From Bdellovibrio sp. GT3 (GTDB taxonomy: Bacteria > Bdellovibrionota > Bdellovibrionia > Bdellovibrionales > Bdellovibrionaceae): a stretch of 64,000 nucleotides of DNA. The notes beneath the pieces are model-generated. The model was not told where the DNA came from. It worked only from the letters and a program-made list of their open reading frames with translations, and did not search any database. The first letter of the stretch is position 1, and every line of letters starts with the position of its first letter. Positions 418 to 10,063 of this stretch are shown one piece after another. The DNA lies in NCBI RefSeq assembly GCF_037996765.1, contig NZ_JBBNAD010000005.1, positions 1,520,001 through 1,584,000 of the forward strand, read 5' to 3'. The position numbers and the translations under genes are program-made.

Positions 418-1166
418 AGAAGTTTATTTTAATCTCTTTATTGTTGGGCTTAAGTGGATGTGGTGATCAACCTCATCTGAAAGCGATTTCCGTCAATCGC
501 GAAGGCAACAAGCTTTTGGAAAAGCAGAGTTTTCAAGCCGCCAACGATAAATATATTGAAGCCTTAAGGTACAATCCATTCTTGTCCCGTTTGCACAGCA
601 ACCTAGGGCTGACCTTTGAAGGATTGCAGCAGGCTGATAAAGCCCAGCAGTCCTATGCGGAAGCGGGGCGACTGGCTGATTTAACTCGTGACCAGGATAT
701 GAAATTCGTCGCGCGTTTTAATGAGGCGCAGCTTTTAGGCAAAGCCAAAAAGGTGGATGAAGCGATCGCGCTTTATCAAAAAGCTCTGGAGATCATTCCC
801 TCCAGCAATGAAGCGAAAACCAATATTGAGTTGCTGATTCAACAGCAGCAAGGTGGCGGCGGCGGTCAGGGCGACAAAAAAGAGGATCAAAAGGATCAAA
901 AAGGTGACCAGCAACAGCAGGGTCAGCAAGGTGATCAAAACCAAGAGCAGGATCAAAAAGACCAGGACGGCAAAGACGGCCAGGAACAAAAGGACAAAAA
1001 GTACCAGGATTCTCCGAAGTACAAGCCTCGTCCTTTTGCAGGCAAAGAGCTGTCTGAGGGTGATGTGAAAAAGATCCTGGGAGAGATTAAGCAGCAGGAA
1101 GGAAAAATCCGGTCTGACTATAATCGCAAAGAATCGAAGGAGCAGCCTCGTGACAAAGATTGGTAG
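414..1166 (+). CDS. batC: BatC-like TPR lipoprotein
   Basis: A 250-residue protein with a lipoprotein signal (lipobox LSGC, Cys at residue 16), two to three tetratricopeptide repeats between about residues 27 and 140, and a low-complexity hydrophilic tail rich in Gln, Lys, Asp and Gly (about 145-200). TPR lipoproteins in this position are called BatC or BatE and are thought to scaffold the BatA/BatB proteins at the inner membrane. It sits between batB (4-base overlap) and batD (17-base overlap), so the three genes are almost certainly one transcript. The low-complexity tail also creates long shadow frames, which I left out. Confidence 0.85.
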   Translation: MKKFILISLLLGLSGCGDQPHLKAISVNREGNKLLEKQSFQAANDKYIEALRYNPFLSRLHSNLGLTFEGLQQADKAQQSYAEAGRLADLTRDQDMKFVARFNEAQLLGKAKKVDEAIALYQKALEIIPSSNEAKTNIELLIQQQQGGGGGQGDKKEDQKDQKGDQQQQGQQGDQNQEQDQKDQDGKDGQEQKDKKYQDSPKYKPRPFAGKELSEGDVKKILGEIKQQEGKIRSDYNRKESKEQPRDKDW

Positions 1167-3144
1167 TCTTATCATCTTTCTGAGTTTCATTTTGAATGCA
1201 GCGGTATCTTTTGCTGCTGGCACTACGGTGAACGCGGTGACCGATCGAAATGAAGTGGGCATGGGAGAGACCTTCACCGTGACCGTTTCTGCGGTGACTT
1301 CTGATGATGTGAATATTCAGGACCCGCGTGTTCCGGAGCTGGATGGCTTTGATTTGTTAAATACATCCACTTCCACGGCTGTCGCACAGAAATTGGTGCC
1401 AGGCAAAGGTGGGATGCAGTTTGAAACTCAACGCCGCAAGGACTACAGCTATACTTTAACTCCGCAACGTCAGGGGACTTTAAGTGTTTCCTCCTTTGAA
1501 GTTATTGTCGGTGGCAAGGTTTTCAGAACTCAACCGATCGTGATTAAGGTGGGCAACACGGGCAGTACCATTCAAGGTGGTAATCAACGTCAAATGCCTC
1601 GTCGTCCCCAGATGCCAGGCATGGATGATCCTTTTGATTCCATGGACCGCGCCGAAGAGGAGATGTTCAATCAACTCTTGCAACAACGTCAGCGTCTGAT
1701 GCAGCAAATGCAGCAGCAGCACGGTGGCGGCATGCCGGATGACCAGTTCGGTGGTGGACCGTCATCCAGCACTATCGACAATCCCGCATTTAGAAGTTTA
1801 CCGACAAACCCCAACGATGCTTTTTTCATTGGTGTCGAAGTTGATAAAACAGAAGTGTACGAAGGTGAGCAGGTCACTGTGAACTGGTACATCTACACGC
1901 GCGGCCAAATGGAAACCCTGGATCGCTTAAAGTTCCCGGATCTAAAAGGCTTTTGGAAAGAAATCATTGAAGAAGTGCCAAGCATTCAATTTTATGAAGT
2001 GAATGTCGGCGGGGTGCCGTGGAAGAAGGCGTTGCTGGCCTCCCACGCTTTGTTTCCTATCAAGTCCGGCTCTTCAACGATTGATCCTTACAAAATTAAA
2101 TCCCGGGTGCGCACTTTGAGTCAGTACGGCATGATGAGCAAGCCCTACGAATACACAAAGAGCTCTGCGAACGTGCCAATCAAAGTAAAGCCCTTGCCGG
2201 TTGAAGGACGACCTTCTGATTTTTCAGGCGCGGTGGGACAGTTTGATGTTCACACCTCGGTTGAGGGATCGAGCTTCCCGGTGAATCAGCCGCTTAGTTT
2301 GAAAGTGCGCTTTGAGGGTTCAGGCAATGCAAAGCTGATTGATCTGCCTCCGATGACATTGCCAGCGGGACTTGAGCAGTACGATACAAAATCGGATTCC
2401 AAGTTCTTTAAAAATGGCCGCGCCTACAAGGAATTTGAAGTTCTGCTGATTCCTCGTCAGGAGGGCGACATGGTTTTCCCAGAGTTGAGTGTCAGCATGT
2501 TTGATCCGGCAACGGGCAAGTACTACACCAAGAAGACCGCGCCGATCACTTTGAAAATCGTGAACAATCCCAATGCGCCAGTAGGTTCTTCGCAAAGAAT
2601 GTCTGGTACTCCGGCACCCGCAGCTGCGAAAGTTGTTGAAAACAAACTTCCCGATGTGATCATGGCGTGGCAGCCCTCAGCGCAGGCCAGTGTGTTGGCG
2701 CGTCCGTGGTTGTGGCTGGTGATTTATGCGGGCGTGTTTGTGACCCTCCTGGTAAAGGCGCAACGTGAATTCGGCTGGGGCCGTCGTCGCAGAACTTTGA
2801 AAGAACAAGTCGGCAAACGCTATAAGGTTGTCGATCAGGCGGTGGGTAAAGACGACTATCGTAAAGTCGGCGCCGAGATGACGAATATCTTTTATATGGT
2901 CATGGGACAGGTGGCCGGGGAGTCCGGGGCTTCGCAAAAAATCGAAGACCTGATGGCGCAAATTCCACCAAGTCTGCGCCGCGATCACGGGGATGAGATC
3001 ACCAAGACATTTGAGATCTTCCAGACGATGTCTTTTGCTCCGGATGAAATGCTGGGAAGCTTGAAAGAAAAAGCGACGATGAAGCAAAATATCGAACGCG
3101 GCAAAAAAGTGATCAGCGAATTGATTTCATCAAAAGAAGAATAA
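1150..3144 (+). CDS. batD: BatD-like envelope protein
   Basis: A 664-residue protein starting at a GTG inside the end of batC. It has a signal peptide (about residues 1-23), an N-terminal beta-sandwich segment beginning TTVNAVTDRNEVGMGETF that is typical of BatD, a Gln/Met/Pro-rich linker near residues 140-200, further beta domains, one membrane helix near 519-538 (WLWLVIYAGVFVTLL) and a charged cytoplasmic tail. BatD family proteins are periplasmic with one anchor and work with BatA-C; their biochemistry is unknown. It is the last gene of the operon, followed by a strong terminator. Confidence 0.88.
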   Translation: MTKIGSLIIFLSFILNAAVSFAAGTTVNAVTDRNEVGMGETFTVTVSAVTSDDVNIQDPRVPELDGFDLLNTSTSTAVAQKLVPGKGGMQFETQRRKDYSYTLTPQRQGTLSVSSFEVIVGGKVFRTQPIVIKVGNTGSTIQGGNQRQMPRRPQMPGMDDPFDSMDRAEEEMFNQLLQQRQRLMQQMQQQHGGGMPDDQFGGGPSSSTIDNPAFRSLPTNPNDAFFIGVEVDKTEVYEGEQVTVNWYIYTRGQMETLDRLKFPDLKGFWKEIIEEVPSIQFYEVNVGGVPWKKALLASHALFPIKSGSSTIDPYKIKSRVRTLSQYGMMSKPYEYTKSSANVPIKVKPLPVEGRPSDFSGAVGQFDVHTSVEGSSFPVNQPLSLKVRFEGSGNAKLIDLPPMTLPAGLEQYDTKSDSKFFKNGRAYKEFEVLLIPRQEGDMVFPELSVSMFDPATGKYYTKKTAPITLKIVNNPNAPVGSSQRMSGTPAPAAAKVVENKLPDVIMAWQPSAQASVLARPWLWLVIYAGVFVTLLVKAQREFGWGRRRRTLKEQVGKRYKVVDQAVGKDDYRKVGAEMTNIFYMVMGQVAGESGASQKIEDLMAQIPPSLRRDHGDEITKTFEIFQTMSFAPDEMLGSLKEKATMKQNIERGKKVISELISSKEE

Positions 3145-3145
3145 A

Positions 3146-3178
3146 AAAAGCCGGATGATGAATCCGGCTTTTTTCTTT
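3146..3178. terminator. Bidirectional intrinsic terminator
   Basis: The stem GCCGGAT/ATCCGGC with a 4-base loop is flanked by an A-run on one side and a T-run on the other. It can end transcription of batD on the plus strand and of the giant RCC1-repeat gene on the minus strand, which stops right beside it. Confidence 0.9.
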
Positions 3179-6100
3179 TTAGTAGTTAATGGCCCTGTTA
3201 ACGTATGATGGAGAGAAGTACGTCGTATTTAAAGTAGTGGTCAGCATATCGACGCCAGAATCAGCAAAACCCCATTCACCAGCCACAGATCCACCAGAGC
3301 ACATCAAAACTCCACCCGTAGTCGTCGCGCACATACCTGTGTATGTCGTCTGGACTTTCGAGAAAGTAGTTCCGCTGGCAACAGCGACGGGCGTACTGAA
3401 TGTTAAATGTGATCCGGCTTCGACAAAGGTATACTGATTTGGCACTGTCGCGTAACCCCAGCATTTCATAGTGCCATCTGTTTTAATACCGCAGCCATTC
3501 GAGCTCGACATTGACACAGAAGTATAAGTCGCACCGCCATCAATCACCGTTGGAACATAGACGTAGTTTGTTCCTGTACCGTTTCTTGGGTCACCCCAGC
3601 ATTTTACTGTATCGGTGGCCGTGATCGCGCAAGTTGCTGAAGCACCAATGCTTAGTTTTTTATAGATGGCACCAGAATCCACGGTGAATGGAGTAAGTTG
3701 GGTTGAAGTGCCGCCATTACCGACAGATCCAAAACCATTTGCTCCCCAGCATTTAATTTGGCCGGCCGTGGTGCGCGCGCAGGTGTGATAAGCGCCGCGA
3801 CCGATTTCAGCGTAAGTGACGCCGGTGTCAATGGTTTTAAATGCAGTGACATCGGTAGAAGTGCCATCACCAATTTGCCCACCGGAATTACGACCTGAAC
3901 AGCGAAGCTCGTCGGCTGTGGTGATTGCGCAAATTGTACTGTAAGAAACAGAGACGGCCTTGTACGTCGTACCCGGATCAACATTGGTTGGAATATAAGC
4001 GGTGCCGCCAACAGCGACGGCGGAGCCGAGCTCGCCGTGGTCATTTTTACCCCAGCATTTTAAGTTGCCGGCGTTATCAATAGCACAGTTGTCGTTATCA
4101 TGTTGAGCAGCCAGAGTCGTGTAAGTTGTGGTTGGATCAATCGCGATAGCTGCCGGATAGCGATAGGCGATTCTGGAAGCATTGCCGAATACAGTGGATG
4201 CACCCCAACAGAATAATTTTCCTGATTTAAGTCCACAGGATTGTGATGAATTCGAGCTGACGTTATTCGTGGCAGGAGTCCAGGAATCCCACTGAGCCAA
4301 TTCGTAGTTGGTGTACCATTTATTCCAGCTGCCAATGGATGGAGCGTAACCGGCGCCGGCCAAATTAAGTGATTTTGTGCTGTCATACGTAAAGTTACCC
4401 CAGCACTTCAATGCGCCACCTGCTGCCCCCGCGGTGACACCACAAGCGCGCTGACCTGTTACTGAAATACTGGTATAGGTTGTGCCTGCATCAACATTCA
4501 CTGCAGTTGTACTTTGAGTCAGAGTTCCGTTCGCTAGGAGTGCATTGGCATTGCTACCCCAGCATTGCAGGGCTCCAGAAGATAGTAGGGCGCACGTAGT
4601 GGTTCTGCCGCCGCTAGTGCTTAGGTCGTCGTTCACTGAAACTGACGTGTATGTTGAGCCGGAATTCACAGAGACCGGAGTTGTGCGATTTGTTGTCGTG
4701 CCATCACCAATGGCACCGGTTCCATTATAACCCCAACATCTTAAAAGTCCTGTGGTTGTAACTCCGCACGCGTGACCTGAGCCGATGGAGACATTGGCAA
4801 AATTATACGTGGAATCGACGTCAATCGGTGAAGTGGCATTTGTGGTTGTTCCGTCTCCAAGTTCGTTAACTGCATTGTGTCCCCAGCAGCGAAGTTTGTC
4901 AGACGAAGTAATTGCACAGGAGGATTTGGCCCCTACTGAGACGTATTTATAGTCATTAGCTGCATCGATTTCTGTCGGAATGTTCAAATTTCCCGTGCCG
5001 CCTTGGCCGAGTGCCCCATGCATTCCCTGACCCCAACAGCGAATTTTACTTCCAGTTGTAAGGCCGCAACTGTGGTTCTCGCCGGAGCTGACAAAAGCGT
5101 AAGAAACTCCACTATCAATAAGTTCCGGAGTATTCTTATCGACCCCGGCACCATTGTTACCAACTTGTCCGTTTGCATTGCGGCCCCAGCAATAAAGATC
5201 GCCATTCGTCGCAACAGCACAAGTGTGTTCATTACCGACGCCGACGTCTTTAAAAGATGTGCCCGGGCTAATTATAATGGCTTCAGATCGGAAAGTCGTA
5301 GAAGCATCACCAATTTGTCCGTAGGAATTAAAGCCCCAGCAGCGCAATGAACTGTCACTCATAATGGCACAGCTGTGCTTGCGACCAATAGATGCTTTCG
5401 TAACTGTCAAATTCTTCTCGTCATCGGCAATAAAGAACTGCGCCTGGTAGTTATTTGTAGGGTAGGCCATCTCTGTGCTTACATTTGAAATACTAAAGTT
5501 AAGAACGCGCTCTCCGCTTGTCAGAGCATTGTCCGGGAAATTGATCGTCACATTTGCAGAAGTGGAGCCGGCTGGAATTGTGACAGACCCGTCAATAAGA
5601 TCATGTTGTGAAGGATAACTTGCATCACCAGATACTCGATAGTTTGCGATGACATCGTACACTTTTGTGGCGTCCATTGAAATCGTCACGACTTGTGCGC
5701 CAGATCCTTCCATGACACGATTCATACGCGATGATGAAATTGACAATGTGTTGTAGGAATCCCTGATCCAAGTCGCGCTGGTCGCAGCCGAAGCCAATTG
5801 AAAATTGCCCGAGGCATCGCCGCCCAACACGCACAATGTAACCGGGCCATTAGGGTGCGAGAATACGGTTGTATTGATAGGGGTTGCAACCGCGATTGCT
5901 GTTGTGTAGCTGGAGGTCGCGCATGTTCCAGTGGATATAACGTTGTACTTATATTGAGTAATATTAGTACCGCTCACCGTAACGTTGATAGCGCTGCCAG
6001 TGTATGTGCCTGTCGGTGCACCCGTAAGGACAGCTACTGGAAGTGGAGCATTGATCACGATGGATTTTTGTCCGGCAAGTGACCCGGCAGATCCTGCTGC

Positions 6101-9100
6101 AGGCAGAGTACGGGTTGCAGCATTGAGCAGAGCATCGATCAGTGTGCCGTTAGAAATTGTCGCCGCAGATGTATAATCCAAGTCTGCTGACATATCCCCA
6201 ATGGCAACGGTATAAGTAAAATTCAGGGTCGTCGTACCGGCACCGCTCGCATAAGTCGCATAGCGGGTGGCTCCGCCAACTTCCATTGCGATACGAGGAG
6301 ATCCAGTTACATTGACGTTTTCATTAAATGTAACGCTAACGTTGATAGCGGCGTTCACGCCATAAGTGCCATCCACCGTCGATGAAGCAATGGATTGTGG
6401 GATGGGGCCGACGCTATCTCTGGTCCAAGTGGTTTCGGCCGTTGCTGCTGAATAGTTTCCGTTAGCATCACGTCCAAGGACGCAAACTTTGTAAAGACCT
6501 TGCTCCGTTAAACTGCCTGTGATTTTTGTCGCGATTGCGATGTCAGCGCCTGTATAGGCTGCCGTATTTGTACAAAGTTCTGAGCCGCTCGGTGGCACTA
6601 TAAAATAGCGATAGTGTGTAACACCTGTGCCGCCCACAGTGATATTCAATGTGGCTGCTGTATTTGTGCCGGTTGGAGCACCAGAAATTGTTGCGGTACC
6701 TGGTGCTACTGTGTCTTTATAAAAGTTTCGGGTCGGTGAATGAGTATTTCCATTTAGTGCAGTCAATCTGGCAAAGATCGAAAAAGGTGTGCCGGAAGTG
6801 TCAGCTAGTCCGGAAAGATTTAAATTTGCAGTCCAGGTGCCAGAGTTACAAGTGGTGGAATTCGAGATTCCCTGGTCCACAGCGCCTAAATAAACCATAA
6901 AGTCGACAGTGCGACCGTTCAGGTTACAAGTACCGGAAACCGTGAACGACGAGGCGTTGTTGGAATTGATATATGAAAGATTGGTGGGTGTGGACCATGC
7001 CAGAACAGGATTCGAACCATCATGCGTGATTGAATCCGATACGCAGTTTGATTCATTACCAGCGACGTCGCGGGTTTTGAAATAGGCAGTGTTTAAACTA
7101 TCGGCCGTAGTCAAAGTCCAAATTTGCGCCGTCGTATAGGATTCCCAAGTGCCTCCAGTTAAACATAAGGCATTGTTGGTGATATACATTTCAGTAGCAC
7201 CCGTGGCAGCGATGGTTACCAGATTCGTCAAGTTGCCAGTATACAGATCATCATTTTTGATTACGAAAGTTTGAACAGTAGGGGCGACAGTGTCTTTTGT
7301 ATAACTTTGTGAAGCGGGAGTTGCATCCACTCCAGCTGAGCGGCTGTGATTTGCCGTGAATGAAATGGAAGCGTCACTCAATGATGATACGTCAATGGTT
7401 TTGCTCCAAGCACCGCCGGAGCAGGTCGCGGACTGAGCACTTAAGCCTGTGATCGTCAAATCCACGGCATTGCCATTTTCAGAGCACGCACCAGAAATGG
7501 TAAATGCTGTTGCGTTACCCAGATTGATATAGCTTCCCGACGCCGGAGAGGCAATTGTCACAGTCGGAACAGCTGAAGAGTGATCAATGGAATCTGAATA
7601 GCAAGTCGATTCGTTGCCGGCTAAATCTCTAAATTTTGTATAGACAGTATTAGTGGCGTTCGCCGTCGGAAGAGTCCACGATTTTGAGCCAGCAAAGGTT
7701 TCCCAAACTCCACCGCTCGCGCAGCCTGAAGTGTTGGTGACGTACATCTCACCACCTGAATCTGAAGTGGTCAGTGTTAGGTTTGCAGAAAGGCTTGTGG
7801 TGCCAACGTTACCGTTATTGATTGAGATGGTACCAGTCGGTAAGCCCGTGTCCTTAATGTAAGTCGGCGAAGTGCCGGAGCCACTGTTGCCTGCGACATC
7901 TGATATCGCGGCATCCAGTTGGAAGCTCCCTTGCGCAAGGGACGAAAGATTCAGAATTGCAGAGAAGGCAGAGCCCGAACATGTTGCTGTCGAGGTAAAG
8001 CTGCTTGGGCCAGTGATGGTGATCGAGCGACCGTTCTCAGAGCAAGCACCGCTAATGGTGAAGGCTGCTACGTTGGCGCTATTGACATAGGAACTTGCAA
8101 TTGGGGAAGTGATGGAAACAGTGGGATTGATGTTGTCATGAAGAATGTCGTCGCTTACGCAGGCCGTTTCATTTCCATGGCTTTCTCTGAACTTAACGTA
8201 CACCGTATTGCTGGAATTCGCAGAGGGCAAAGTCCAGGCTTTTGCCGTGGCAAAGGCTTCCCACGCACCACCGGTGGCGCAGGTTGCAGAGTTGGTGACA
8301 TACATTTCAGTTGCGTCTGTGACATTCAAATTAAAAGTCGCTGAAAGGGAGGTCGTCGCAGCGGTACCTGCGTTAAGGGCCACAGAAGTGATAGTCGGAA
8401 CAGTGACGTAGCGAGTGGTGATTACAAATTTAGAGCGAGTGTTAGTGTAAGAGTCAGCATGGGTCGCTGACAACGTGATGGTATTGCCCGTTAAGCCAGT
8501 GACATCCAGAGTTCTGCTAAAGCTACCACCGGAACATGTGGCCGTGGTGTTGATGGAGCCAATGGCAATCGCCACAGAGGCACCATTTTCAGAACAAGTT
8601 CCGCTGACTGTATATGCAGATTGATTTGCCGCTGTTATGCCGACCGCAGATGGAATATCCACTGTGGGAGGGACCGTGTCCTTATCAATGGCGACAGTAT
8701 AAGCTTTCGGTGTGCCTCCGCCAGATGGAGTGACCGTGAATGTAACGTCGCCGGCGTAAATGCCACTGACAGCACTAAGATCAATGCCGCGAGTCCATGT
8801 ACCAGTTGTTGCGCAAGTGAAAGTTAGAATGTTTGCAGCAGAAGGGGCCGACACGGTCACTGAAGCGCCCTGACCACAACGACCAAAGAAAGGAACTGAA
8901 GCAACATTGGCTTCATTAACCAGGCCACCTGCCGCAGTCGTGTTTACTGCAAACGAATCCTGATAAATAACTGGAGAAGAACAAGCCGAAGGAGTGACCT
9001 TGCCGGTGACATCCATTGAATAGACACGGAATGTATATTGTTGGCCTTCATCTTTCAGGAAGGAAGCAGTGTTTTCACCAGTGTCTGCGCCAAGCTGAAT

Positions 9101-9367
9101 GGAGGGGAGGATCGGGTCCTCGCAGCTCGCGCCTTTATAATAGAGCAGTTCCTGTTGTACGATTTTTTCGCTGGTCGGAGCGGCCCATTGAGCTTGCAGG
9201 TCACCGGATGAATTTAGAACTTGTTGGTCCCAGGCCAAGGATGAGGCTGAATTAGATGAAAGCTCTTCCAACGAAAGATCTATGGAGCAACCCACGAGAA
9301 GTACTGGGGCTAAACTCAATGCGAGCTTTAGGATACAGTTATTTAAATACGTTCGGGTATGTTCCAT
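3179..9367 (-). CDS. Giant RCC1-repeat / Ig-like surface lipoprotein
   Basis: A 2062-residue protein with a lipoprotein signal (LLVGC, Cys27). After an FN3-like segment (about 30-130) come repeated Ig-like modules (about 130-1200) in which motifs such as SGACSENG and EMYVTN recur. A Calx-beta-like module follows (about 1210-1320, with VMEGSGAQVV and DNALTSGERVL). From about 1320 to the end there are roughly 14 RCC1-like repeats of the form C-A/G-x-T...L-x-CWG-x-N...G-x-G-D. Most repeats carry two cysteines about 8-10 residues apart, suggesting a disulphide in each blade, so up to two seven-bladed propellers. Function is unknown. The architecture suggests a surface-exposed adhesion or recognition protein. 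It is a single gene with the shared terminator at its 3' end. Confidence 0.88.
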   Translation of the reverse strand: MEHTRTYLNNCILKLALSLAPVLLVGCSIDLSLEELSSNSASSLAWDQQVLNSSGDLQAQWAAPTSEKIVQQELLYYKGASCEDPILPSIQLGADTGENTASFLKDEGQQYTFRVYSMDVTGKVTPSACSSPVIYQDSFAVNTTAAGGLVNEANVASVPFFGRCGQGASVTVSAPSAANILTFTCATTGTWTRGIDLSAVSGIYAGDVTFTVTPSGGGTPKAYTVAIDKDTVPPTVDIPSAVGITAANQSAYTVSGTCSENGASVAIAIGSINTTATCSGGSFSRTLDVTGLTGNTITLSATHADSYTNTRSKFVITTRYVTVPTITSVALNAGTAATTSLSATFNLNVTDATEMYVTNSATCATGGAWEAFATAKAWTLPSANSSNTVYVKFRESHGNETACVSDDILHDNINPTVSITSPIASSYVNSANVAAFTISGACSENGRSITITGPSSFTSTATCSGSAFSAILNLSSLAQGSFQLDAAISDVAGNSGSGTSPTYIKDTGLPTGTISINNGNVGTTSLSANLTLTTSDSGGEMYVTNTSGCASGGVWETFAGSKSWTLPTANATNTVYTKFRDLAGNESTCYSDSIDHSSAVPTVTIASPASGSYINLGNATAFTISGACSENGNAVDLTITGLSAQSATCSGGAWSKTIDVSSLSDASISFTANHSRSAGVDATPASQSYTKDTVAPTVQTFVIKNDDLYTGNLTNLVTIAATGATEMYITNNALCLTGGTWESYTTAQIWTLTTADSLNTAYFKTRDVAGNESNCVSDSITHDGSNPVLAWSTPTNLSYINSNNASSFTVSGTCNLNGRTVDFMVYLGAVDQGISNSTTCNSGTWTANLNLSGLADTSGTPFSIFARLTALNGNTHSPTRNFYKDTVAPGTATISGAPTGTNTAATLNITVGGTGVTHYRYFIVPPSGSELCTNTAAYTGADIAIATKITGSLTEQGLYKVCVLGRDANGNYSAATAETTWTRDSVGPIPQSIASSTVDGTYGVNAAINVSVTFNENVNVTGSPRIAMEVGGATRYATYASGAGTTTLNFTYTVAIGDMSADLDYTSAATISNGTLIDALLNAATRTLPAAGSAGSLAGQKSIVINAPLPVAVLTGAPTGTYTGSAINVTVSGTNITQYKYNVISTGTCATSSYTTAIAVATPINTTVFSHPNGPVTLCVLGGDASGNFQLASAATSATWIRDSYNTLSISSSRMNRVMEGSGAQVVTISMDATKVYDVIANYRVSGDASYPSQHDLIDGSVTIPAGSTSANVTINFPDNALTSGERVLNFSISNVSTEMAYPTNNYQAQFFIADDEKNLTVTKASIGRKHSCAIMSDSSLRCWGFNSYGQIGDASTTFRSEAIIISPGTSFKDVGVGNEHTCAVATNGDLYCWGRNANGQVGNNGAGVDKNTPELIDSGVSYAFVSSGENHSCGLTTGSKIRCWGQGMHGALGQGGTGNLNIPTEIDAANDYKYVSVGAKSSCAITSSDKLRCWGHNAVNELGDGTTTNATSPIDVDSTYNFANVSIGSGHACGVTTTGLLRCWGYNGTGAIGDGTTTNRTTPVSVNSGSTYTSVSVNDDLSTSGGRTTTCALLSSGALQCWGSNANALLANGTLTQSTTAVNVDAGTTYTSISVTGQRACGVTAGAAGGALKCWGNFTYDSTKSLNLAGAGYAPSIGSWNKWYTNYELAQWDSWTPATNNVSSNSSQSCGLKSGKLFCWGASTVFGNASRIAYRYPAAIAIDPTTTYTTLAAQHDNDNCAIDNAGNLKCWGKNDHGELGSAVAVGGTAYIPTNVDPGTTYKAVSVSYSTICAITTADELRCSGRNSGGQIGDGTSTDVTAFKTIDTGVTYAEIGRGAYHTCARTTAGQIKCWGANGFGSVGNGGTSTQLTPFTVDSGAIYKKLSIGASATCAITATDTVKCWGDPRNGTGTNYVYVPTVIDGGATYTSVSMSSSNGCGIKTDGTMKCWGYATVPNQYTFVEAGSHLTFSTPVAVASGTTFSKVQTTYTGMCATTTGGVLMCSGGSVAGEWGFADSGVDMLTTTLNTTYFSPSYVNRAINY

Positions 9368-9514
9368 GAATAACTATTCGGTGTTACCAGAATATTTATT
9401 AGATTTTGATTGGGTTAACTTATTGAAGTCAGGTCAAAGTTTCACAATTGTAACCACGAAGGTGAATAGTGGTGTTTCAAGTTGATACACTGAGCGGAGT
9501 TAATTTGTGTTTAT

Positions 9515-10063
9515 TTATTGTTTCACAAACGGCAGTCTTTCAGTCATCTGATAGCGAGTTTGTGGAGTCTTGCCATCAAGCTCACTGCTGGCTGTGCCCA
9601 TGAACATCAAAAGGGGAGTCTGCGCTTTTATCTGGTAAGTGGAATAAAGAATCTCGCCCTCATCCGGATTTTTGTATTCATCACAAACAAGCCCGGTGAC
9701 CACTTTTGGAGTGCCGGTTTTCCAATCCTCAAAACCACACCAGTTGATCAGGTTTAAGGCTTCGGTGACGCCTTCAGTGAGGCTGGTGTAAGAAGTCTCC
9801 ACGGTGGTCATATCGATAAACCGATCCACGGCCTTCACTTTATAATTCACCTGATAAGTCAAATAAGCCTTCGTGCACTTCTCATCCTCATAGGCTACAT
9901 GGGAATACTTCCAGGCAGCACCTTGAACCGACAAAGTCGAAATCAAAGAATCATCCCCCATCAAGTAGCAGCCCTTCACGTACTCTCCATCAACATTATT
10001 ATGAGCCTGAGGAGCCGCGAACAAAATCTGAGTCAAAAAAAGCGCAAGTCTAACCATCCCCAA
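9515..10063 (-). CDS. Exported protein of unknown function
   Basis: A 182-residue protein with an N-terminal signal peptide (LALFLTQILFAAPQA) and at least four cysteines in the mature part, which suits a periplasmic or secreted protein with disulphides. I recognise no domain. It stands alone between the giant lipoprotein gene and a divergent small exported-protein gene. A dispersed repeat lies directly upstream of its start. Confidence 0.7.
   Translation of the reverse strand: MGMVRLALFLTQILFAAPQAHNNVDGEYVKGCYLMGDDSLISTLSVQGAAWKYSHVAYEDEKCTKAYLTYQVNYKVKAVDRFIDMTTVETSYTSLTEGVTEALNLINWCGFEDWKTGTPKVVTGLVCDEYKNPDEGEILYSTYQIKAQTPLLMFMGTASSELDGKTPQTRYQMTERLPFVKQ

Follow-up and report, generated by a model that had tools for sequence, protein, structure and literature searches.

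What is the function of the 2062-residue protein with RCC1-like repeats that is encoded on the minus strand of the window analyzed here, a stretch of 64,000 nucleotides of Bdellovibrio sp. GT3 (assembly GCF_037996765.1, contig NZ_JBBNAD010000005.1, positions 1,520,001 to 1,584,000; genome of 3.58 Mb in 6 contigs, designated G000)? The open reading frame (ORF) extends from an ATG at 9367 to a stop codon at 3179–3181, and the complete gene (3179..9367), which has full-length relatives in four other genomes, encodes a lipoprotein with an Ig-like stalk and a 14-blade RCC1 head. A lipoprotein had been proposed at this position in the original prediction, and this was confirmed by a signal peptide (residues 1–26; 9290..9367) followed by the lipobox cysteine (residue 27; 9287..9289) of the motif LVGC at residues 24–27; a lipobox was also found by regular expression in all four orthologues. 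The serine at position +2 would agree with sorting to the outer membrane if the rule established in E. coli applies to Bdellovibrio. Taken together, the lipid anchor, the long stalk, the exchangeable head, its fold, which binds protein partners in other systems, and an upstream element of attack-phase type point to a role in recognition or adhesion in the free-swimming predator. We consider it somewhat more probable than not that the gene encodes a lipid-anchored outer-membrane protein of this kind, equipped with a swappable head and acting during the attack phase.

The head was found to contain 14 blades with the RCC1 pattern, which makes exact the earlier estimate of about 14 repeats. Pfam analysis of the whole protein revealed the RCC1-like domain PF25390 (236.6 bits, cut-off 150), RCC1_2 (PF13540; 200.7 bits, cut-off 22, 11 stretches) and PF00415 (102.7 bits). 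A cysteine pair is present in all 14 blades, thus in more than the "most blades" claimed originally; the spacing is C-x9-C in 12 blades, x12 in blade 7 and x8 in blade 8. The pair ends in CWG in 12 blades and in CSG in two. RCC1 repeats were detected at E ≤ 0.01 in all 17 heads of an alignment that includes the window protein and a same-genome paralogue at 37% identity. All 28 blade cysteines occupy invariant columns of this alignment, against a mean column identity of 55%, which excludes a chance origin of the pairs.

According to the AlphaFold2 model of the head, which was built from the 17-sequence alignment (mean predicted local distance difference test, pLDDT, 81.5; predicted template modelling score, pTM, 0.70), the blades form RCC1-type propellers, as the fold-prediction check suggested earlier was meant to establish. 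The best fold match was UVR8 (Z = 50.8, root-mean-square deviation (rmsd) 1.8, 353 aligned residues), followed by RPGR (Z = 43.5), HERC2 (42.5), RCC1 (41.2), BLIP-II (26.3) and ACR4 (25.1); Foldseek likewise returned UVR8, RPGR, HERC and RCC1, and a sequence search of solved structures returned UVR8, HERC, RPGR, RCC1 and ACR4. Cysteine-paired blades were also counted by regular expression, which may overlook atypical blades or include an unrelated pair, in 42 other RCC1 ORFs (39 from the genus and three from G034, a member of another family; these are chosen loci rather than every family member): 24 had exactly 14 blades, five had exactly seven, nine had 12–13, and the remaining four had 15, 10, 9 and 3, the 3-blade ORF being cut by a contig end. 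The proposed arrangement as two seven-bladed RCC1 propellers (7 + 7) is therefore supported by the model, by its match to UVR8 and by the 14- and 7-blade relatives. Propeller 1 would comprise blades 1–7 (residues 1318–1660; 4388..5416, minus strand, as for all parts of the gene; delimited by Pfam, cysteine pattern, model and fold matches), and propeller 2 would comprise blades 8–14 (residues 1707–2026; 3290..4249; cysteine pattern and model), with a linker between them, partly of low confidence in the model (residues 1661–1706; 4250..4387). A single 14-bladed ring was ruled out by the 353-residue match to seven-bladed UVR8 and by the existence of seven-blade relatives.

The model also places a C-terminal strand (residues 2049–2055; 3203..3223; low confidence, pLDDT about 50–68) where it may close propeller 1. 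The UVR8 rows of the fold comparison cover model residues 117–860 with about 353 aligned residues, more than the 319 that propeller 1 alone gives HERC2 (within 119–450), which can be read as the strand packing on propeller 1; rows of UVR8, RCC2, Kti13 and one of ACR4 extend to 858–862. A similar proline-led strand, judged by eye, ends 9 of 11 compared C-termini. Against such a closure, the RPGR, HERC and RCC1 rows end at 446–451, trimmed or not. There is thus a weak indication that the chain forms propeller 2 before it returns to complete propeller 1 with its last strand.

The protein has 52 cysteines: C11 of the signal peptide, the lipidated C27, 28 in the blades and 22 in the stalk. In all 14 modelled blades, the two cysteines of a pair lie on consecutive strands and face each other across the strand 3/4 hairpin; their positions add up to the hairpin centre in blade 8 and to one less in the other 13 blades. 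Opposition was judged from strand positions in the model. One hairpin disulphide per blade, as had been suggested from the sequence, is consequently plausible. The genome encodes VKOR and DsbA-like domains in one 402-aa frame (G000:C4:1122956-1124080) as well as a second DsbA-like protein, and no DsbB match was found in it; disulphides could therefore be made via a VKOR route. A parallel to the paired cysteines is provided by CRINKLY4/ACR4 (PDB 7a0j and 7a0k), the extracellular RCC1-like seven-bladed propeller of which carries C(X~10)CWG in each repeat and is thought to contain one disulphide per repeat; according to the same source, the RCC1 and BLIP-II structures that served as modelling templates lack such pairs (PMC4617170). 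ACR4 has one propeller, a TNFR-like domain, a membrane helix and a kinase, whereas the window protein has two propellers, an Ig-like stalk and a lipid anchor; the Pfam scan of the latter revealed no kinase domain, and its chain ends after the head. Thus, it resembles CRINKLY4-type receptors in its paired cysteines without being a receptor kinase itself. Its fold places it in the RCC1-like beta-propeller superfamily; as a bacterial lipoprotein, it is not classed with RCC1 proper, the nuclear exchange factor of Ran. UVR8, RCC1, RPGR and HERC, which share the fold (Z = 39–51) and the Pfam RCC1-like domain, are intracellular eukaryotic proteins and, unlike the window protein, lack a signal peptide and a stalk.

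The stalk (residues 28–1204; 5756..9286) consists of some 12 beta-sandwich (Fn3/Ig-like) domains, 11 of them with an assigned cysteine pair, as supported by cysteine conservation, the model, and Pfam and NCBIfam matches. Its 22 cysteines were assigned by us from sequence positions to 11 within-domain pairs, and those in the interval from residue 164 to 962, 18 in all, are conserved without exception in 14 sequences. The stalk model is nearly all beta (pLDDT 81.3), and its low pTM (0.34) is expected of a flexible chain. No Ig-like domain was called by Pfam in the window protein itself; among 14 stalk sequences, Big_3_3 was found in 7 and Big_13 in 5. The beta-sandwich part of the proposed Ig-like and Calx-beta stalk was thus borne out, whereas Calx-beta (PF03160) scored only 13.6 bits against a cut-off of 27. 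A weak Calx-beta-like domain is nevertheless marked at residues 1205–1317 (5417..5755), given the strands in the model and the fact that 5 of the 17 aligned heads match Calx-beta at E ≤ 0.01 (best value, 2.1 × 10−5). The long stalk is probably braced by disulphides; from the usual length of an Ig domain, it would measure about 40–50 nm if extended. It also resembles Ca_tandemer (NF033510; E = 1.6 × 10−9) of the Ca2+-stabilised tandem-repeat adhesins, and the ice-binding adhesin 4p99 is among its fold matches, although the score of 38 bits lies below the curated cut-off of 50 and Ca_tandemer proteins are large secreted adhesins, not RCC1-headed lipoproteins. The first Foldseek match of the stalk was the neck of the grappling-hook protein GhpA (PDB 9flp; E = 2 × 10−29) of Aureispira, another predatory bacterium. 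GhpA was dropped as a true relative (template modelling score 0.19–0.23, no sequence match with the stalk profile), the likeness being at most a shared chain of Ig-like domains.

Full-length orthologues, 61–74% identical, were detected in 4 of the 38 other genomes searched (G010, G011, G021 and G022), and all four share the locus, with batD on one side and a 182-aa gene, a Sir2-family (SIR2) gene and an aconitase gene, in this order upstream of the lipoprotein gene, on the other; in G010, only the near neighbours are on the contig, which ends before SIR2 and aconitase, and those comparisons were not used for it. In the window, the convergent neighbour encodes BatD (1150..3144, plus strand; PF13584, 110 bits), is kept in 24 of 24 genus genomes and marks the site; a terminator-like hairpin usable on both strands (3143..3175) lies between the two genes. 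The other side is marked by the 182-aa gene (9515..10063, minus strand), which has no Pfam match and is present near the locus in many genus genomes. The lipoprotein gene occurs at the batD site in 5 of the 24 genus genomes, and the stretch from batD to aconitase/SIR2 lacks it in all 15 other genus genomes that were readable there; 16 had been fetched, of which G016 showed only batD and was not counted, and the remaining three (G003, G008 and G013) lay outside this set. On the far side of aconitase, G015 has a weak RCC1 match, and some genomes without the gene at this locus have related stalk-plus-head genes at other sites.

Comparison of the sister species G011 and G022 revealed a drop in identity within the gene. 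The flanking genes are nearly the same in the two genomes at the amino acid (aa) and nucleotide (nt) levels (BatD 98% aa and 92% nt; 182-aa gene 92 and 89%; SIR2 97 and 93%; aconitase 99 and 94%), as is the N-terminal part of the lipoprotein (residues 1–350, 93% aa and 85% nt; 350–700, 87% aa and 79% nt), whereas its C-terminal half falls to 50% aa at residues 800–900, 60% at 1000–1200, 57% at both 1200–1320 and 1320–1660, and 44% at 1660–2062, residues 900–1000 being an exception at 75%. The low-identity parts show 49–60% nt identity. The G022 head matches that of G021 (93 and 85% aa), although the G021 and G022 flanks diverge more than those of G011 and G022 (BatD 88%, 182-aa gene 70%), and the G011 head matches that of G000 (86 and 72%). 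The trees differ accordingly: for residues 28–700, the best topology was (G000,G010)(G011,G022)G021, with alternatives 22–25 log-likelihood (lnL) units worse (approximately unbiased (AU) test, p = 0.016 and 0.001), whereas for the head it was (G000,G011)(G021,G022)G010, and any head tree without G021 + G022 was at least 633 lnL units worse. Residues 700–900 showed a third history (G010 + G022, G011 + G021). The terminator hairpins of G011 and G022 differ, and the 150 bases upstream of the gene are nearly identical. As a control in the same pair, another RCC1 lipoprotein (1121 aa) was 93–100% identical at the aa level in every 100-column block. Thus, these comparisons show that the head, together with differing portions of the stalk, has been exchanged between closely related species at this locus independently of the N-terminal stalk and both neighbours, which stayed in place. 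At a second locus, synonymous divergence (dS) between G001 and G018 was 0.16 and 0.27 for the head against 0.95–1.02 for the stalk, a contrast that fits a recent head transfer.

The attack-phase promoters of B. bacteriovorus contain TTAAG-N16-CCGATA in 92 of 140 cases and were interpreted as FliA sites, with cell-surface anchors among the genes so equipped (PMC3627812). A variant of this −10 box, CCGAATA, lies at −14 from the ATG of the window gene (9375..9381). Among 38 family genes, many of which are orthologues and so not independent, 25 have CCGATA or CCGAATA in the 80 bases upstream of the start, and in 14 of these 25 it stands at −13 or −14; antisense controls gave 1 of 38, and shuffles gave a mean of 1.2 and a maximum of 6. 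CCGA precedes all 38 genes (antisense 4; shuffles, mean 10.3, maximum 20). The set comprised the 42 ORFs minus L043, L044 and L112–L114, plus the window gene, and starts were assigned by rule as the nearest ATG at least 14 codons before the lipobox, which yielded none for the 1121-aa protein of G011, the 1116-aa protein of G021 and the 1121-aa protein of G022. Among 43 other window ORFs, hand-chosen and with mechanical starts, some perhaps wrong, one had CCGATA or CCGAATA and six had CCGA. The orthologues in G011, G021 and G022 have TTAAAG...CCGATAA, and that in G010 has only CCGA and neither full box. Genome-wide, the strict pattern TAAAN{14,16}CCGATAA was not enriched (8 sites against 7 in the reversed control). 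CCGATAARTAN{0,14}ATG matched 7 times, at 6 sites, and never in the control; one of the sites precedes an RCC1 paralogue. A −10 box at −14 would place the 5′ end close to the ATG, suggesting a nearly leaderless mRNA.

Two further observations concern this element. GGAACGT or a near variant, noted by eye, occurs about 20–35 bases 3′ of the CCGATA element in many family genes (e.g., L041, L042 and L072), inside or just before the coding start. Furthermore, a Kelch-repeat lipoprotein of the host genome (LTGC; Kelch_4, 170 bits; L119:1-1503, G000:C4 near 111581-111598) has the element CCGATAAGTA directly before its start, so that, judging by its sequence, the promoter-like element is shared by propeller lipoproteins of two kinds.

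The diversity of heads on a surface lipoprotein might be driven by phages, bacteriocins or self/non-self recognition of the predator itself rather than by prey. Head exchange at a fixed locus is also expected from escape from a surface-binding agent, and the absence of the gene from the site in the 15 other readable genomes agrees with this; the attack-phase-like element found across the family is more simply explained by prey finding, although it would be compatible with such pressures too, and we regard this explanation as unlikely. The protein could instead act in the periplasm, at the predator–prey interface or in the bdelloplast as a tight-binding or inhibitory propeller resembling BLIP-II, with the stalk as a spacer and perhaps with release in membrane vesicles. 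BLIP-II, an RCC1-fold inhibitor of beta-lactamase from Streptomyces and one of the fold matches of the head, is a secreted bacterial propeller that binds its protein partner with picomolar affinity according to the titles of its structure entries; it is, however, a single small propeller of 269–273 residues, without a stalk and without a lipid anchor. An RCC1 protein is listed in the outer-membrane vesicles of Myxococcus (PMC4158809), and Bdellovibrio is reported to leave a vesicle in its prey (PMC10769870). However, about 13 stalk domains would be hard to fit in the periplasm if extended, and so would the longer stalks of relatives of 2834–2847 aa (L049, L050, L052 and L053, from G006, G002, G015 and G023, respectively), in which about 770 extra residues with partly repeated stalk segments precede the head, so that the stalk differs in length while the head stays at 14 blades; we regard this second alternative as unlikely too. 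A neutral mosaic, produced by the frequent recombination of repetitive genes and without consequence for function, is in our estimation very unlikely, since no exchange is visible between the same two species in another RCC1 lipoprotein that is repetitive as well, and two head types about 50% identical persist on one stalk in several species, although the involvement of stalk residues 700–900 and the uniformly low ratios of nonsynonymous to synonymous divergence (dN/dS) would suit it.

Several results also weigh against the favoured reading of an attack-phase recognition or adhesion protein. The alternative trees for residues 28–700 are worse by only the 22–25 lnL units given above, and the exchange is not limited to the head but is visible in stalk residues 700–900 too. 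In the pairs G000/G011, G010/G011, G021/G022 and G001/G018, heads are more conserved than stalks, and the greatest variation is therefore not always found in the head. The substitution rates gave no sign of positive selection on the head, all finite dN/dS values (0.03–0.18) being purifying. The window gene itself has only the variant box and no clear −35 box. Finally, no RCC1_2 match at E ≤ 0.001 was obtained in the genus genomes G014 and G016, two of 24, and the family is therefore not indispensable to the genus. It should be added that the position-by-position comparison of the two head types over the blades revealed many variable positions (e.g., −6, −3, 13, 18 and 28 from the first cysteine), with no one face singled out.

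RCC1 blades had been described as rare in lipoproteins, which proved wrong for this genus: a lipobox was found by regular expression in 36 of 39 genus RCC1 ORFs and in all three from G034 (39 of 42 in total), and RCC1_2 is present in 22 of 24 genomes of the genus and 87 of 118 of the class, against 0 of 14 control genomes. The host genome contains six intact RCC1 genes including the window gene, each of which encodes a lipobox. A seventh is interrupted by a contig break, where two contig ends (C5, L043:1-734; C1, L044:13-745) overlap by 734 bases at 99.5% identity, with seven cysteine-paired blades on one end and the lipobox on the other; the assembly thus seems to break within a further family member. 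Cysteine-paired blades also occur in a Caldilineaceae bacterium (two ORFs with 14 each), in a Halobacteriovorax (7) and in an actinomycete (7), so the stapled blade is not a Bdellovibrio invention. In G016, a lipoprotein frame of 945 aa (L038:1-2835, cut by the locus end) matches the window stalk at 25–26% identity, and its C-terminal part is FGE-sulfatase-like (28 bits, cut-off 23.3) in place of RCC1, which indicates that this stalk type can bear another head.

Under the favoured reading, the stalk would carry the head beyond the outer membrane, where the propeller faces would bind a partner, glycan or protein, that varies in structure between prey; head exchange would change this partner, expression in the attack phase would start from a FliA-like promoter close to the start codon, and the protein would have a role in predation. 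The role towards prey guessed originally gains no more than indirect support, from the exchange of heads and from the attack-phase-like upstream element. Its mode of action may resemble that of the MAT fibres of B. bacteriovorus, surface proteins of the predator in which the base is constant and the tips can be exchanged, and for which the authors described tip swapping. The construction is different: MAT fibres are trimeric, beta-helical and phage-fibre-like, and the word "lipoprotein" does not occur in the main text describing them (PMC10769870). The S74 family, present in the MAT superfamily only in the S74 subgroup, was not among the Pfam matches of the window protein. A broader proposal, which we put forward only tentatively and hold at less than even, is that a second prey-recognition repertoire exists beside the MAT fibres, made of Ig-like lipid-anchored stalks bearing stapled double RCC1 propellers, or sometimes other heads, in which heads would be exchanged between species at fixed sites in the manner of phage tail-fibre tips, FliA-type attack-phase promoters would lie almost on the start codon, and a last strand would close propeller 1.

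In the searches made among open-licence papers, no literature on the RCC1 lipoproteins of Bdellovibrio was found, the sole mention found that links the two being that annotated RTX toxin sequences carry RCC1 repeats (PMC5941755). Prey recognition by Bdellovibrio has been described as obscure (PMC10769870), and the rarity of invasive mutants has been attributed to redundancy among adhesins (PMC11003981); six RCC1 lipoprotein genes in one genome would fit such redundancy. Thus, a defined candidate family for prey recognition is now available. Its head is modular, sister species carry natural variants of the head on the same stalk, and its genes have a promoter-like element in common, so that head-swap and multi-deletion tests become direct.

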